Below are positions 11,148 through 18,332 of a stretch of 18,332 nt of DNA, one piece after another. The notes beneath the pieces were generated by a model that did no database searches, had not been told where the DNA came from, and was given only the letters and a program-made list of their open reading frames with translations. The stretch comes from Clostridiales bacterium. Its GTDB lineage: Bacteria; Bacillota; Clostridia; Oscillospirales; Ruminococcaceae. The translations under genes were made by a program, and so were the position numbers. Position 1 is the first letter of the stretch, and each line of letters begins with the position of its first letter. The stretch covers positions 1 to 18,332 of the forward strand of contig JAAZLM010000001.1 of assembly GCA_012799315.1 (NCBI GenBank), written 5' to 3'.

Positions 11148-12800
<1,653 letters not shown>

Positions 12801-12821
12801 TATAGATACTATCCTAAATAG

Positions 12822-12860
12822 AAAAACTCACAGTATAAATACTGTGAGTTTTCTTTTTTT
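12822..12860. terminator. Bidirectional terminator between groEL and the phosphonate operon
   Basis: AAAACTCACAGTAT (12823-12836) pairs with ATACTGTGAGTTTT (12839-12852), a nearly perfect 14-base-pair stem. On the plus strand it is followed by CTTTTTTT; on the minus strand the tail is TTTTTC. It ends groESL and also the convergent phosphonate operon, whose last stop codon is at 12864. Confidence 0.93.
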
Positions 12861-12863
12861 AAC

Positions 12864-13994
12864 TTATAAGATATTCGATAGAATTTGTCGTACCTGTTCT
12901 TTCGATATATCGACGGGGTTATTATTCATTCTGCCAGCAGTGAATGATGCTTCAACAAGCTTATCAATATCATCATCTTCAATGCCGAATGCACTCAGAC
13001 GCAGAGTCTGAATATCGTCGGTAACTTTATCGAGCCATTCCTGCAAACCTCCGTCACTCTCAAATATCGCTAGGAGTTCGGCAATTTCGGGCAGGGCGGA
13101 CATATTAATTTTAGCAATTTGTGCAATTGTCAATATTACCGCAAATCCATGATCAACACCGAACATCATAGTCATTGGATATGAAATAGAGTGACTTGCC
13201 GTTGTGCGGGTATTTGAGAATGCAACACCTGCAAGGATTGATGCACGGCATAGCTGGGAGCGAATGTAGTAATCGTCCGGCTTTTGAACTGCTAGTGGTA
13301 GATACTTATGAATCTTCGACACTGCCATCATAGCAATATCTTGAATGAGCGGATTAGTCTGCTTAGCCCAGAATGATTCCATCGCATGACTCATCGCATC
13401 AAGTGCCGTTGACACCATTAATTTCTTTGGCGCCGTCATAGTCAATTCCGTGCAAACGAGTGATTGAGCAGGGTATAATGCGTTCATATCAACGGATAGC
13501 TTTTTACCGCTAACCGTATCCCAAATTGTTGCCCATTTAGTAACTTCCGATCCTGTTCCGGCAGTTGTAGGAATAGCTATGATCGGGATAGTATTCGCAT
13601 TATCAGCATATCCTCTTGCTTGTATATACTCAGAAACATCGTCAGGAACATCATTGCCACTGCTAATATAATCAAACAATGCACTAATGCCCTTACCTAA
13701 GTCGATAGCACTGCCGCCGCCGATACAAATCAGCTTTTCGGGCTTGGTGCCGATTTTCTTAACACCGTTGATGACATCAATATGTGTCGGATTCGCATAG
13801 TTTTCATCGAGCCATGTGAAGTCATATCGGCTAGCCATTCCATCAATGACGTTAGTTAGCTTTAGCCACTTAGACATATCTTTTGATACAATTAGTGAGA
13901 TGCTGCTCCCCTCATTGTAGGAAAGCAAAACCTCCTCTAATTCGTTTTTTGTAACGAATTCAATGTTGATAGGACAGAATAAATCGTCCTTCAT
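12864..13994 (-). CDS. Iron-type alcohol dehydrogenase, probable phosphonoacetaldehyde reductase
   Basis: A 376-residue group III metal-dependent dehydrogenase. NAD(P) is bound by the Rossmann part (IGGGSAIDLGKGIS and TTAGTGSEVTKWAT). The metal ligands are intact: Asp199 and His203 in DAMSHAME, His268 in ASHSISYPMT and His282 in VDHGFAV. The family alone does not give the substrate. Its place as last gene after PEP mutase and phosphonopyruvate decarboxylase indicates reduction of phosphonoacetaldehyde to 2-hydroxyethylphosphonate, as PhpC-type reductases do in phosphonate gene clusters. No aminotransferase is visible here, which argues against 2-aminoethylphosphonate as the end product. AGGAGG precedes the ATG by eight bases and almost touches the stop of the previous gene, leaving only 15 bases between them. 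Confidence 0.85.
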   Translation of the reverse strand: MKDDLFCPINIEFVTKNELEEVLLSYNEGSSISLIVSKDMSKWLKLTNVIDGMASRYDFTWLDENYANPTHIDVINGVKKIGTKPEKLICIGGGSAIDLGKGISALFDYISSGNDVPDDVSEYIQARGYADNANTIPIIAIPTTAGTGSEVTKWATIWDTVSGKKLSVDMNALYPAQSLVCTELTMTAPKKLMVSTALDAMSHAMESFWAKQTNPLIQDIAMMAVSKIHKYLPLAVQKPDDYYIRSQLCRASILAGVAFSNTRTTASHSISYPMTMMFGVDHGFAVILTIAQIAKINMSALPEIAELLAIFESDGGLQEWLDKVTDDIQTLRLSAFGIEDDDIDKLVEASFTAGRMNNNPVDISKEQVRQILSNIL

Positions 13995-14009
13995 ATTAAC
14001 ACCCTCCTT

Positions 14010-16037
14010 TTAGTCAGCATCGGGAATTAGAGTCAAGATTTCTGAAATTGGCATGCAACATTCAGAATCCGCCTCCATGCAACGTGAATTTGCTAGTATG
14101 GTTTCTGCTGTCTTTTGCATTGCGGGGAATGCGCTGCGTATTAGCTGATTAGCATAAATAACGATATTAACACCGTGTTCAGCGAATTCTTCCTCAGTTA
14201 CCATATTGAATGTAGTTGGAACAACAACAAGAGGAGTATCCTTATTTTCGGAGCGGAAAATCCGGCAGAATTCAAAAATTTCATCAGGTGATTTCTTGCG
14301 TGAGTGAATCATTATTCCATCTGCGCCAGCATCGACATATGCCCTTGCCCTTTCAATAGCATCGTCCATGCCTTGCTCAAGTATTAGACTTTCGATACGG
14401 GCAATTATCATGAAGTCTTTAGTCATAAGGCCGGCCTTACCAGCTTTAATTTTATCGCAGAAATTCTCAATACTATCTTGAGTTTGTGCAACTTCATTAC
14501 CAAATAGGGAATTCTTTTTCAGCCCCGTCTTATCTTCTATAATAATAGCGGATACACCAATTCTCTCGAGTGTCTTAACAAAGAATTGGAAATGCTCAGT
14601 TAGTCCACCCGTATCACCATCAATGATGATTGGCTTAGTTGTAACCTCCATAATATCGTCGATTGTACGCAGTCTTGAAGTTGAGTCGACAAGCTCAATA
14701 TCGGGCTTACCTTTAGCGGTTGAATCGCACAGGCTAGAGATCCACATTGCATCGAATTGGCGGATAGCGCCATCTCTTTCGACCTTAGTATTTTCAGCGA
14801 TTAATCCAGTTAAACCATTGTGCGCCTCTAAAACTGAAATAGGCTTCTTAAGTTCTAGGAGTTTTTTCAGTCTTGCACGACGGCGCTCAGGCATTGCCAG
14901 CACTTTTCTTGAATTCTGCTCAAGTGCCTCAGTTGTTGCATCATTAGTATATGGGAATTCCACCAATTTGCCACCGTATGAAACGAGTGTATCAATTACT
15001 TTTTGGCGGATATTCTGTTGCGGGCCAGTCTTCCAATCATCGCCATGGACAACAATATCGGGCTTATATTTTAGTAGATTTTCAGTATAGTCAATTGAAT
15101 CCTGCTTAACTACTTTTGATACACCTTTGATATTGTTTATTATCTTCATTCTTTCTTCAAACGGTACTAGCGGGAATCTTTTATATTGGGATACTGCCTC
15201 ATCAGTCATAACGCCGACAGTCAATTCGCCAAGCTCCGCAGCATTTGAAATAATTTTGATATGCCCGTTATGAATAATATCCGTACTCATAACAATATAA
15301 ACTGATTTCTTATCTTTATCGCCCAACAATTTACCACTTACTTTCCTACAATTTTCTAAATCTTCGGGGTTGTCAATTTCAGCACAAACACGGCCTTTTA
15401 CATCTAGAGGATATATGTTAGTCTTATCAGTAACCGTATTTAGAGCATTTTCCGCATAAACGGAGCGGTCGCCCCTATTGCAGAAATCTACAATTGCATC
15501 AAGCCATACCGCCCAATCCTCTTTTTTGAGCTTATATAAAGGCTGCGCCGCAACCGCATCGTCAAAGAATTCAATGCCAACAGCGGCAACCTTACCATCT
15601 TTAATTACAGCTTTGAAGTCCTTTTGCGGTAGGGGGAGGGTGGTATCAACAACAATTGATGAATCCTCCGCCTTGATAATATCACGCAGAACGGTCGGCT
15701 CAAAGACTAAATCGCCGTGTATTAGCAAGATGTCATCATCACGGAGCACATCTTCAGCCAGTGCTATTGAATAAATATAGTTAGTATCCTTATACACATC
15801 GTTCTTTACAAAAGTGAAGTTAAGGTCGGGGAAATTCTCTCTAGCATATGATTCTAGCAATTTGCTATAAGGGCCAGTTGTGATTACAACATCTTTGATG
15901 CCCTCATTCTCAAGATGCGTCAGCTGCAAATAAAGAACTGTTATACTTGGCTGAACTTCCACCATGCATTTCGGTTTGTCCTGTGTTAAAGCGCCCATGC
16001 GCTTTCCAATGCCTGAATTCAAGATTAGTGCTTTCAT
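14010..16037 (-). CDS. aepX: Triple fusion: nucleotidyltransferase, cytidylyltransferase-like domain and PEP mutase
   Basis: A 675-residue protein in three parts. Residues 1 to about 235 form a LicC/PntC-like NTP-transferase domain (GIGKRM at 9-14, KPK at 21-23, HGD at 107-109). Residues about 243-372 form a TagD/RfaE-type cytidylyltransferase fold (HNGH at 256-259, HGDDWK at 331-336), but where family members have an ISTT-like motif it reads TNDATT at 364-369. Residues about 377-675 are PEP mutase, with EAHNGLTGLIAE, DGDTGG, and EDKTGLKKNS at 501-510, the EDK-x5-NS signature that separates PEP mutase from isocitrate lyase relatives. The enzyme should turn PEP into phosphonopyruvate, and a nucleotidyltransferase domain should activate the final phosphonate with CTP. 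The start overlaps the previous stop (TAATG), with AAGGAGA upstream. Ordinary PEP mutases are about 300 residues, or about 430 with one cytidylyltransferase domain. Confidence 0.9.
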   Translation of the reverse strand: MKALILNSGIGKRMGALTQDKPKCMVEVQPSITVLYLQLTHLENEGIKDVVITTGPYSKLLESYARENFPDLNFTFVKNDVYKDTNYIYSIALAEDVLRDDDILLIHGDLVFEPTVLRDIIKAEDSSIVVDTTLPLPQKDFKAVIKDGKVAAVGIEFFDDAVAAQPLYKLKKEDWAVWLDAIVDFCNRGDRSVYAENALNTVTDKTNIYPLDVKGRVCAEIDNPEDLENCRKVSGKLLGDKDKKSVYIVMSTDIIHNGHIKIISNAAELGELTVGVMTDEAVSQYKRFPLVPFEERMKIINNIKGVSKVVKQDSIDYTENLLKYKPDIVVHGDDWKTGPQQNIRQKVIDTLVSYGGKLVEFPYTNDATTEALEQNSRKVLAMPERRRARLKKLLELKKPISVLEAHNGLTGLIAENTKVERDGAIRQFDAMWISSLCDSTAKGKPDIELVDSTSRLRTIDDIMEVTTKPIIIDGDTGGLTEHFQFFVKTLERIGVSAIIIEDKTGLKKNSLFGNEVAQTQDSIENFCDKIKAGKAGLMTKDFMIIARIESLILEQGMDDAIERARAYVDAGADGIMIHSRKKSPDEIFEFCRIFRSENKDTPLVVVPTTFNMVTEEEFAEHGVNIVIYANQLIRSAFPAMQKTAETILANSRCMEADSECCMPISEILTLIPDAD

Positions 16038-17170
16038 TAGAAAATCTCCTTTATAAACGACATGAAATCGTCTTTATTTTGTGCCGGTGTAGTAGTTGGC
16101 CTACCTAAATCCGCCCGTGACTTAAGATTTGCCTTTACTTCTACAAAAATCGGGCCGCTCATACCATCGAGCTTTGAAATAACCGCCTTTAGCTCAACTG
16201 CATTAGTTGCAGTGAAAACATGAGCATAGCCGACGGACTTTGCCAGTGCGGGGAAGTCGATATTCCCAGACACCGTTGGCATTCCTCCGACTGTTTCGTG
16301 AGCGGAATTATTAATAACGAAGTGAATGAGGTTCTTTGATTGTTGCGAAGTTAGCACTGCCATACTTCCCATATGCATGAGGGATGCACCATCACCATCA
16401 AGGCAGTAAACACGTCTATCGGGCTTCTCCATTGCAATGCCCATTGCAATCATTGACGAATGACCCATTGAGCCAACAGTGAGGAAGTCCCTCTTATGGC
16501 ATTCGCCACGTTCCTCCCTAGCTTCAAATAATTCTCTTGATAATTTTCCAGTAGTCGATACTACAATATCGGATTCGCCCATACCGTCGATTATTGTTTT
16601 AACAATTTCCTCACGTGATAGCGGATAGTCATTACCGTAATCGACTTTATCGCACATTTCAAGTGCGCCTTTTTGCACCACTAGTGCAAATGGTTTCTTT
16701 TGTGATAATGCGGTATTTGCCTCTTTTAATGCGGAGTCCATCTCATCTTCCGTTGTATCTTTCTTTAAGATGAAGTAGGGGATGTTCAAACAGTCAAGTA
16801 ATTTTAGTGTGATTTCTCCTTGGAAGATGTGTTGGGGCTCATCTTTTACACCGGGTTGCCCCCTCCATCCTATTACAAAAAGCATCGGAATTTGATATAC
16901 TTTTTCGTTAATTAGCGAGCAGATCGGATTGATCGCATTGCCAATTCCACTATTTTGCATATATACAACAGCGGGGGATCCCGTTGCAAGATAATGCCCT
17001 GCGGCGAGTCCGACTCCTGCCCCTTCATTAGCGGCGATAATATGATTATTGCCAATACCATATTCCTTTGTAACATAGTCGCATAGTGCTTTTAGCTGCG
17101 AATCGGGTACGCCGGTATAGAAATTGATTCCAATATCGCTGAATTTTTCGAATAATAATTTTATATCCAA
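16037..17170 (-). CDS. aepY: Phosphonopyruvate decarboxylase
   Basis: A 377-residue thiamine-diphosphate enzyme that removes CO2 from phosphonopyruvate to give phosphonoacetaldehyde; this irreversible step pulls the unfavourable PEP mutase reaction forward. Visible features: FYTGVPDSQLKALCDYV at the N-terminus, the cofactor-activating Glu49 in AANEGAGVGLAAG, and the ThDP/magnesium motif GDG at 259-261 ending in NN at 287-288, the expected spacing. The short length without a central domain is typical of this enzyme and distinguishes it from acetolactate synthase. Translation seems to begin at TTG 17168-17170, with AAGGA ten bases before it; I see no ATG in frame nearby. Its stop overlaps the PEP mutase start by one base, so the two successive enzymes are coupled. 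Confidence 0.94.
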   Translation of the reverse strand: MDIKLLFEKFSDIGINFYTGVPDSQLKALCDYVTKEYGIGNNHIIAANEGAGVGLAAGHYLATGSPAVVYMQNSGIGNAINPICSLINEKVYQIPMLFVIGWRGQPGVKDEPQHIFQGEITLKLLDCLNIPYFILKKDTTEDEMDSALKEANTALSQKKPFALVVQKGALEMCDKVDYGNDYPLSREEIVKTIIDGMGESDIVVSTTGKLSRELFEAREERGECHKRDFLTVGSMGHSSMIAMGIAMEKPDRRVYCLDGDGASLMHMGSMAVLTSQQSKNLIHFVINNSAHETVGGMPTVSGNIDFPALAKSVGYAHVFTATNAVELKAVISKLDGMSGPIFVEVKANLKSRADLGRPTTTPAQNKDDFMSFIKEIF

Positions 17171-17208
17171 TATGATTCTATCCTTCCATTCTAGTATTAA
17201 TAAATAGC

Positions 17209-18332
17209 TTAAGCTATAAATTTCTTTAACCGTGCCTTTAGTCTTGCTTTAAAGGTATTGTTCTGACTTGTCCTTTTCTGCTGGCGCCGCTCCTTTAGCA
17301 TTTCAGATGCTAAAATAGCTTCATGCTGCATTTCTTCTATTGTCGGTGGTGTGAATTCATCATCGGCAGGCTCGCCCCCAATTCCATCTAGCTCAAGAAT
17401 ATTCATTATAGCATCATTGAACTGGAATGCATCATCGGGATTAACATAAATATCGCAGTTTAAATTAATGATCTTCTCTTTGCCGACTTTCCTAGTTATC
17501 CTTTCGCCAAAGTTGATTGGTGAAATAATGATTTTATCATATCTTTCAAGCATTTTTTGATCAACATAGCGCTTTAAACTTAGATCCTTGCTAATATATA
17601 CAATTGATTTGTCAGCGATTGTTGGCAATGCCCATCTCCAAATATCTTGACTTTGCGCAGTGTCGATCGTAAGGTCGAATCGAATATCATCGAAGACGAA
17701 ACGAGTGAAAATCTGAGTCCCCTCATCCGATAGATAACCGTCGCCAAATGCGGATTCTGTCCTTGCACCCGATATTGCCTCTTGATAATATCGATATAAC
17801 TGCCATGGACAACGATAGATGATGTGGATATTCGGATTAAGCCGCTTTAAGTAAACCTCATCAACGATATTGGGCCTTGCATTGAAATAGAGTGTAATAT
17901 CTAACTGGGTAAAGTCAATTTTATTAAGCGAATTTACAAGATCGGCACTATCCGCCCTTGAACGGAAGTTACCAACATTGATTAAAATTCGTGGTTTTTC
18001 CGGTCTTTCGATACTATAAACATTCGGCGAATGTGCACCCTTGAATATAATATCGACAACACGTTGAGTGCAATTCCCATCTTCACGGTAGCAATATTCT
18101 TCTAGCATATATGTATGCTTATCTTCATAGTTAGGATAGATTTCATCAATATTAGCAAGTGTATCGGTAACTTCTTTTGCGGTGTAACAAATTGGCCCCG
18201 GCATAGTGTCGAAATCCATATACATTCCACGCTCTTTTTCGTATAACTCCCTATCGTAAGCAAAGAAAATAATTGGTCGCTTTAATTTTAGGAAGTCGAA
18301 GAATATTCCCGAATAATCGGTAATTAGAATAT
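17209..18332 (-). CDS. TagF-like CDP-polyol phosphotransferase with C-terminal GT-B-like domain, 5' end outside the window
   Basis: The frame is open to the right edge, so only the last 373 residues are seen. The first visible residues, ILITDYSGIFFDFLKLKRP, then YEKERGMYMDFDTMPGPI, are the C-terminal signatures of the CDP-glycerol glycerophosphotransferase family (PF04464: TagB, TagF, TarL). These peripheral membrane enzymes add polyol phosphates to teichoic-acid-like polymers. After this domain come about 230 more residues. They include RILINVGNFRSRADSADLVN and YDKIIISPINF, resembling the first half of a GT-B glycosyltransferase as found in some multidomain Gram-positive homologues, but ending without the usual second half. 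The tail is basic (ARLKARLKKF). It lies 38 bases ahead of the decarboxylase gene on the same strand, linking polymer assembly to phosphonate synthesis. Donor and acceptor are unknown. Confidence 0.85.
   Translation of the reverse strand, partial: ILITDYSGIFFDFLKLKRPIIFFAYDRELYEKERGMYMDFDTMPGPICYTAKEVTDTLANIDEIYPNYEDKHTYMLEEYCYREDGNCTQRVVDIIFKGAHSPNVYSIERPEKPRILINVGNFRSRADSADLVNSLNKIDFTQLDITLYFNARPNIVDEVYLKRLNPNIHIIYRCPWQLYRYYQEAISGARTESAFGDGYLSDEGTQIFTRFVFDDIRFDLTIDTAQSQDIWRWALPTIADKSIVYISKDLSLKRYVDQKMLERYDKIIISPINFGERITRKVGKEKIINLNCDIYVNPDDAFQFNDAIMNILELDGIGGEPADDEFTPPTIEEMQHEAILASEMLKERRQQKRTSQNNTFKARLKARLKKFIA

Follow-up and report, generated by a model that had tools for sequence, protein, structure and literature searches.

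A phosphonate operon with a TagF-like transferase gene in a Clostridiales bacterium suggests phosphonyl tailoring of a surface polymer

Introduction

In the Pnt clusters surveyed by Rice et al. 2019 (PMC6697681), phosphonyl tailoring runs from formation of a carbon–phosphorus (C–P) bond through activation with cytidine triphosphate (CTP) to transfer to the cell surface, and the available text of that paper calls the steps after CTP activation enigmatic. The present study concerns an operon of four genes at the end of a contig from a Clostridiales genome (G000; 1.26 Mb, 79% complete, 287 contigs). The whole stretch of DNA analysed, hereafter the window, comprises 18,332 nucleotides (G000:C245:1-18332). 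The operon follows the same logic: one gene cluster predicted to make a C–P compound, to activate it with CTP and to encode a teichoic-acid-type transferase suggests a surface polymer that carries phosphonate.

The central protein of the operon has the same domain architecture as a PF12804–PF01467–phosphoenolpyruvate (PEP) mutase triple fusion described by Rice et al., who count 42 such fusions among 1485 PEP mutases (PMC6697681, available text); the fusion itself is therefore already known. Two features set the window apart from what is described there. The characterised PntC enzymes prefer aminoethylphosphonate (AEP), whereas the product here is probably 2-hydroxyethylphosphonate (HEP); and the neighbours reported are LicD-like phosphotransferases or glycosyltransferases, whereas the partner here belongs to PF04464. 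The word “glycerophosphotransferase” appears nowhere in the main text of that paper.

The proximity of a PF04464-type gene to a PEP mutase gene is likewise already in print, for Bacteroides thetaiotaomicron. The expression tables of PMC10434189 include BT1716, of the CDP-glycerol glycerophosphotransferase family, four locus tags from the PEP mutase gene aepX (BT1720), along with BT1717 (lipopolysaccharide biosynthesis) and BT1721 (a cytidylyltransferase); the pair goes uncommented in the available parts of that source. Unlike in the window, the cytidylyltransferase is a separate gene and the PF04464-type gene does not lie next to the PEP mutase gene. In what is available of two further papers, TagF occurs only within a reference title (PMC7866108) and no link between TagF and phosphonates is drawn (PMC7356198).

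A third related system is Fom1 of the fosfomycin pathway, which, like the window protein, is a fused cytidylyltransferase (CyTase)–PEP mutase and is the nearest solved relative of the middle domain of the fusion. Fom1 serves an antibiotic pathway, whereas in the window the fusion begins with an additional nucleotidyltransferase and a wall-polymer-type transferase is encoded as well. The later fosfomycin genes, in the set that we take to make up the rest of that pathway, are absent from the four visible operon genes. Bacterial polysaccharides carrying HEP are reportedly exemplified by the actinobacterial phosphonoglycans of Glycomyces and Stackebrandtia, said to have been described by Yu et al. 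in 2014; we know of no PF04464 link for these.

Results and Discussion

Organization of the operon

Most likely, this operon serves phosphonyl tailoring and has as its transferase a PF04464 enzyme related to Cps3D. Specifically, PEP mutase, then phosphonopyruvate decarboxylase (Ppd), then an iron-type alcohol dehydrogenase (Fe-ADH) would convert PEP via phosphonopyruvate and phosphonoacetaldehyde to HEP; the Fom1-like domain of the fusion would activate HEP with CTP to give CMP-HEP; and the TagF-like enzyme would move the HEP phosphonate group from CMP-HEP to a hydroxyl group on a surface glycan or polymer, either adding one HEP or building a chain through the free hydroxyl of HEP. We assign this reading, in which HEP is made, activated and transferred to a surface glycan, a probability of roughly 0.55. 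Its parts differ in footing: the PEP mutase and Ppd steps rest on sequence models scoring over their cut-offs; HEP and CMP-HEP are the probable products by domain similarity, CMP-HEP being a best guess from the Fom1-like domain; and HEP transfer by the TagF-like enzyme is supported by gene position together with family chemistry. The free hydroxyl of HEP makes a chain of HEP with C–P bonds in its backbone chemically permissible. That the enzyme polymerises CMP-HEP into such a wall or capsule polymer, a phosphonate teichoic acid, with several PF04464 lineages recruited separately to this end, nevertheless strikes us as improbable. The features are as follows.

17209..18330, minus strand: TagF-like (PF04464) transferase, of which the contig end leaves only the last 373 residues; the relative P0122 supplies the N-terminal part
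18040..18330, minus strand: end of the PF04464 phosphotransferase domain, with TDYSG and RGMYMDFD..PGP stretches
17209..18039, minus strand: C-terminal extension of the TagF-like protein, matched in the family profile to the beginning of the C-terminal region of Cps3D
16037..17170, minus strand: Ppd (TIGR03297, 479.7 bits, cut-off 312.5)
14010..16037, minus strand: triple fusion of a LicC/PntC-like nucleotidyltransferase, a Fom1-like cytidylyltransferase and PEP mutase (Pfam, NCBIfam, motifs)
15327..16037, minus strand: fusion domain 1 (residues 1-237), LicC-like nucleotidyltransferase (1jyk, 43 bits; 6pd1, 26 bits)
14916..15320, minus strand: fusion domain 2 (residues 240-374), Fom1-type cytidylyltransferase with HxGH (5x3d, 150 bits)
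14019..14885, minus strand: fusion domain 3 (residues 385-673), PEP mutase with EDKxxxxxNS (TIGR02320, motif)
12864..13994, minus strand: Fe-ADH, probable phosphonoacetaldehyde reductase (Pfam; TIGR03405 under cut-off)
12823..12852, plus strand: terminator-like stem of 13 pairs between groEL and the operon end (stem search)

The TagF-like and Ppd genes are separated by 38 bp, Ppd and the fusion overlap by 1 base, and 15 bp lie between the fusion and Fe-ADH; the first gene is cut by the contig end at the end of the window. These open reading frames (ORFs), with their coordinates and spacings, bear out the four tightly packed minus-strand genes described in a first-pass annotation of the window. 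Its TagF-family assignment stands, PF04464 scoring over cut-off, for what is only the last 373 codons of a gene running off the contig; the PEP mutase/nucleotidyltransferase fusion it named is present and proves to have three parts, with two different cytidylyltransferase-type domains; and the route it proposed from PEP to HEP and then CTP activation is predicted by the gene families, with the Fe-ADH falling under the TIGR03405 cut-off.

Among the four visible operon genes we found no tagD, tagGH or other wall-polymer gene, the contig ending inside the first of the four. Promoter-like matches in 12700-18332 number 18 against a shuffle mean of 16.9, a count uninformative for or against a separate promoter, and base composition across the window is fairly even (GC 0.34-0.44).

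Phosphonate enzymes and the triple fusion

A Pfam scan places PF12804, PF01467 and PF13714 in a single window protein. Its PEP mutase domain scores 410.2 bits with TIGR02320 (cut-off 319.55) and carries EDKTGLKKNS at residue 501. Domain 1 (NTP_transferase/LicC-like) matches its solved relatives at low scores; domain 2 (CTP_transf_like), with its HxGH motif at residue 256 (HNGH), matches the CyTase of Fom1 at 150 bits versus 36 bits for glycerol-3-phosphate cytidylyltransferase. Catalytic-looking stretches are kept throughout (GIGKRM, KPK, HGDL and EID; HNGH; EDKTGLKKNS), with core residues that vary little or not at all in an alignment of 14 sequences, so that both nucleotidyltransferase domains may be active. 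Three loci (L003, L005 and L012) encode domain 1 separately, in a gene that has its own stop and precedes a CyTase–PEP mutase gene by 12-57 bases. A protein search gave at least 7995 homologues of the fusion, and the 120 listed all carry the three Pfam domains; a genome scan gave at least 530 confirmed fusion loci, the best 80 of which are mostly from Clostridia and Bacteroidales.

The Fe-ADH is assigned by Pfam, and its best NCBIfam model, TIGR03405, reaches 235.3 bits, well short of the cut-off of 423.7. That shortfall speaks for a different product, AEP or another phosphonate, with the Fe-ADH acting elsewhere. So does the LicC/PntC-like character of domain 1, a family active on AEP (PMC6697681, available text), as does the B. 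thetaiotaomicron table, in which aepX and a phosphocholine-cytidylyltransferase-type gene lie near a PF04464-type gene (PMC10434189, available parts). We nonetheless hold a product other than HEP to be quite unlikely: no aminotransferase gene is found among the four visible operon genes, domain 2 resembles Fom1 much more than it does glycerol-3-phosphate cytidylyltransferase, and across 112 loci the Fe-ADH family occurs in 72, against 79 for the fusion family and 73 for Ppd.

The TagF-like protein

The TagF-like frame is open to the contig end and is also 373 aa when called in the whole genome; ATG 18225 was rejected as its start, since the frame runs open past it to the contig end. The fragment covers only positions 270-367 of the PF04464 profile, followed by about 275 residues outside it, and scores 105.4 bits (cut-off 22.1). 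P0122 (462 aa), 99% identical over the shared half, contains a complete PF04464 domain (279.8 bits) and keeps both PF04464 histidines that align with TagF H444 and H584 (the latter number counted by hand on the alignment), a region that the window fragment is without. A genome search found PF04464 matches in G000 on C137 and C245 only, which means that the assembly does not contain the missing N-terminal part. The other P0122 matches at E 1e-30 in 396 genomes of the family share at most 36% identity.

Through P0122 the window protein shares PF04464 and its conserved histidines with the TarF/TagF wall teichoic acid transferases. It differs from them in its operon partners, which are PEP mutase genes and not TagD, and in scoring far under the NCBIfam equivalog cut-offs for TarF, TarL and TarB (81.4, 38.7 and 28.3 bits versus 550, 1000 and 500), a weak test for a fragment. 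The best solved relative of its family is the capsule polymerase Cps3D (8qoy; 351.6 bits with a five-sequence profile), with which it aligns over PF04464 and into the C-terminal region. Cps3D has a C-terminal glycosyltransferase domain of the GT-B type and uses CDP-glycerol (PMC8262930, available text), whereas the window enzyme ends after the apparent first half of that domain. Glycos_transf_1 was not found in the window fragment (E 0.001) or in its relatives P0121 and P0123 (E 1), and the window lineage therefore seems to have lost the donor half of the GT-B domain. In a sister TagF from genome G388 the whole GT4 domain (Glycos_transf_1) is kept, giving a Cps3D-like PF04464+GT4 protein.

PF04464 genes beside the PEP mutase module

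Gene order was counted in 72 of 80 relative loci, the other 8 having been dropped because no plus-strand PEP mutase ORF remained after ORF picking. Genes were labelled from our own profiles and clusters, with PF04464 called canonical above 100 bits, and the expectation by position was set by the share of immediate neighbours of the module among same-strand flank genes (106 of 665). Directly beside the module stand 6 of 9 canonical PF04464 genes (expected 1.4) and 9 of 12 divergent ones (expected 1.9); the same holds for 18 of 44 LicD genes (expected 7.0) and 10 of 25 flippase genes (expected 4.0). No clear excess was found for GT2 (3/32, expected 5.1), GT4 (0/28, 4.5), DegT aminotransferase (1/13, 2.1) or epimerase (5/23, 3.7). 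The test controls for location in a polysaccharide island and not for relatedness among loci (e.g., L010 with L011 and L038 with L040).

The divergent PF04464 proteins from L021, L004, L010, L038, L069 and L075 pass the Pfam cut-off; that from L019 matches only 60KD_IMP in Pfam at E 0.001. Two genomes with the full fusion illustrate the range of neighbours: in G026, taken to be the genome of L021, a 60KD_IMP–PF04464 protein adjoins the fusion, and in G035 no LicD or PF04464 match was found within 19 kb.

As a partner that recurs directly beside the module, PF04464 offers, besides LicD, an enzyme class in which phosphonate transfer can be tested. If chains are built, gut-type Clostridia and Bacteroidales would bear a surface polymer with its phosphorus in C–P bonds.

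As a separate observation, one protein family stands beside PEP mutase at L021:8073-10004, L069:711-2741 and L020:8095-9975. The L021 and L069 proteins combine a YidC-like 60KD_IMP domain with a weak PF04464 match in Pfam, and the L020 protein was placed with them by clustering and our own PF04464 profile. It is possible that these are membrane-anchored phosphonate transferases.

Evolution of the pairing

In a quick tree of 64 PF04464 domains, 12 of them labelled as near a PEP mutase gene (pepM), the pepM-near label needs 6 changes, at least 5 of them forced by the starred branches, against an average of 11.2 in shuffles; the pairing is thus partly clustered and not of single origin. The label covers four of ten pepM-near loci in which the TagF gene is one or more genes from the module (L026, L056, L064 and L071), as well as P0123, whose neighbourhood is unseen.

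L012 repeats the gene order TagF–Ppd–...–PEP mutase with a TagF that shares only 31% identity with the window fragment. Also at L012, divergent from its LicD–TagF–Ppd–PEP mutase operon, lies a gene for a short-chain dehydrogenase fused to CTP_transf_like (L012:4913-6052), perhaps another maker of a CDP-polyol.

Within the L008 subfamily, the TagF neighbour is the PEP mutase fusion in G378, LicD in G894, TagD in G471 (TIGR01518, 207.8 bits) and a TagD-like ORF in G798. A switch of donor is suggested most clearly by G378 (98% complete), a single genome: TIGR01518 matches nothing there except the fusion, IspD is matched once, and the copy beside the PEP mutase is the sole full-length PF04464 match. 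The absence of TagD from G378, taken alone, was rejected as evidence, as explained below. Collectively, the adjacency excess, the several separate pairings and this swap of a TagD neighbour in one subfamily support use of PF04464 enzymes in the phosphonate pathway.

Chance neighbours and CDP-glycerol as rival readings

A number of observations weigh against HEP transfer by the TagF-like enzyme. At the level of whole genomes, PF04464 (E at most 1e-15) occurs in 9 of 30 genomes of the order with a PEP mutase over cut-off and in 93 of the 365 others, which is no enrichment, and a genome-wide association in this order was rejected on these counts. At the level of loci, 31 of 72 have neither LicD nor PF04464 among their same-strand flank genes, and binomial values for adjacency are optimistic, as near relatives stand among the 72. 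The tree has six long branches, two of which meet, leaving exact placements unsure. The L012 locus is without an ADH match and has TagD elsewhere on its contig, and the pairing is not conserved in close kin, G894 belonging to the same genus as G378. The missing genome-level enrichment and the loci lacking both transferases are what might be seen if the module made a free or lipid-linked HEP derivative and TagF were a chance neighbour in a surface-polysaccharide island. We give this account little credence, since LicD, PF04464 and flippase genes adjoin the module in excess, a pattern not shared by the four other island families tested, and since the order of TagF and Ppd is kept in a relative as distant as L012.

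The main rival concerns the donor. G000 encodes TagD (191 bits, over cut-off) at C29:7490-7828, at the very end of a contig; this makes CDP-glycerol available as a possible donor for the window TagF. The enzyme might still make a glycerol-phosphate polymer from CDP-glycerol, with TagD encoded elsewhere and the phosphonate decoration attached by another, unseen transferase. In line with this, the Cps3D-like sister TagF of G388 lies one acyltransferase gene from TagD, with LicD and an ABC-2 permease nearby, and Cps3D itself uses CDP-glycerol. Neither does the distribution of TagD tell against it: 71 of 102 PF04464 genomes are without TagD over cut-off, so that its absence from G378 is weak evidence, and a TagD gene within 1.5 kb was found for 4 of 40 control loci versus 0 of 10 pepM-near loci (flanks up to 10 kb), a comparison that does not discriminate and was rejected as evidence. 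The latter test used a profile from three sequences, and a fifth control and L012 gave a weaker match in a longer ORF.

Other findings speak against this rival. A second PF04464 (TagF) gene of G000, beside an ABC-2 permease on C137, could serve TagD; no LicD match was found in a search of G000, itself 79% complete; a gap of 38 bp separates the window TagF gene from Ppd and the CMP-phosphonate genes behind it; and TagD was not found in G378. On balance we think it unlikely that the window enzyme uses CDP-glycerol, while ranking this first among the alternatives to HEP transfer. The first-pass annotation had proposed a CDP-type phosphonate donor for the PF04464 enzyme, and position lends this support through adjacency, separate pairings and the TagD swap, the transfer itself being read from position and family chemistry. 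PF04464 genes do recur directly beside PEP mutase modules, and this holds for gene adjacency without extending to co-occurrence in genomes. It had also considered that the TagF-like gene might belong to a separate glycerol teichoic acid operon; no TagD or teichoic gene is seen in the visible operon, and G000 has TagD and a second TagF on other contigs.

Surroundings of the operon

The phosphonate operon adjoins groESL (window:10850-12800), and the TagF–TagD–LicD–ABC-2 permease locus of G388 (G388:C6, L203) also lies near groESL, on its other side. Upstream of groESL in the window, genes for an HtrA-like protease, a histidine kinase and a response regulator stand in a row (window:6662-10388). 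The stretch window:542-3456 encodes an ABC transporter ATPase and, next to it, a large protein that weakly matches an ABC-2 membrane model.

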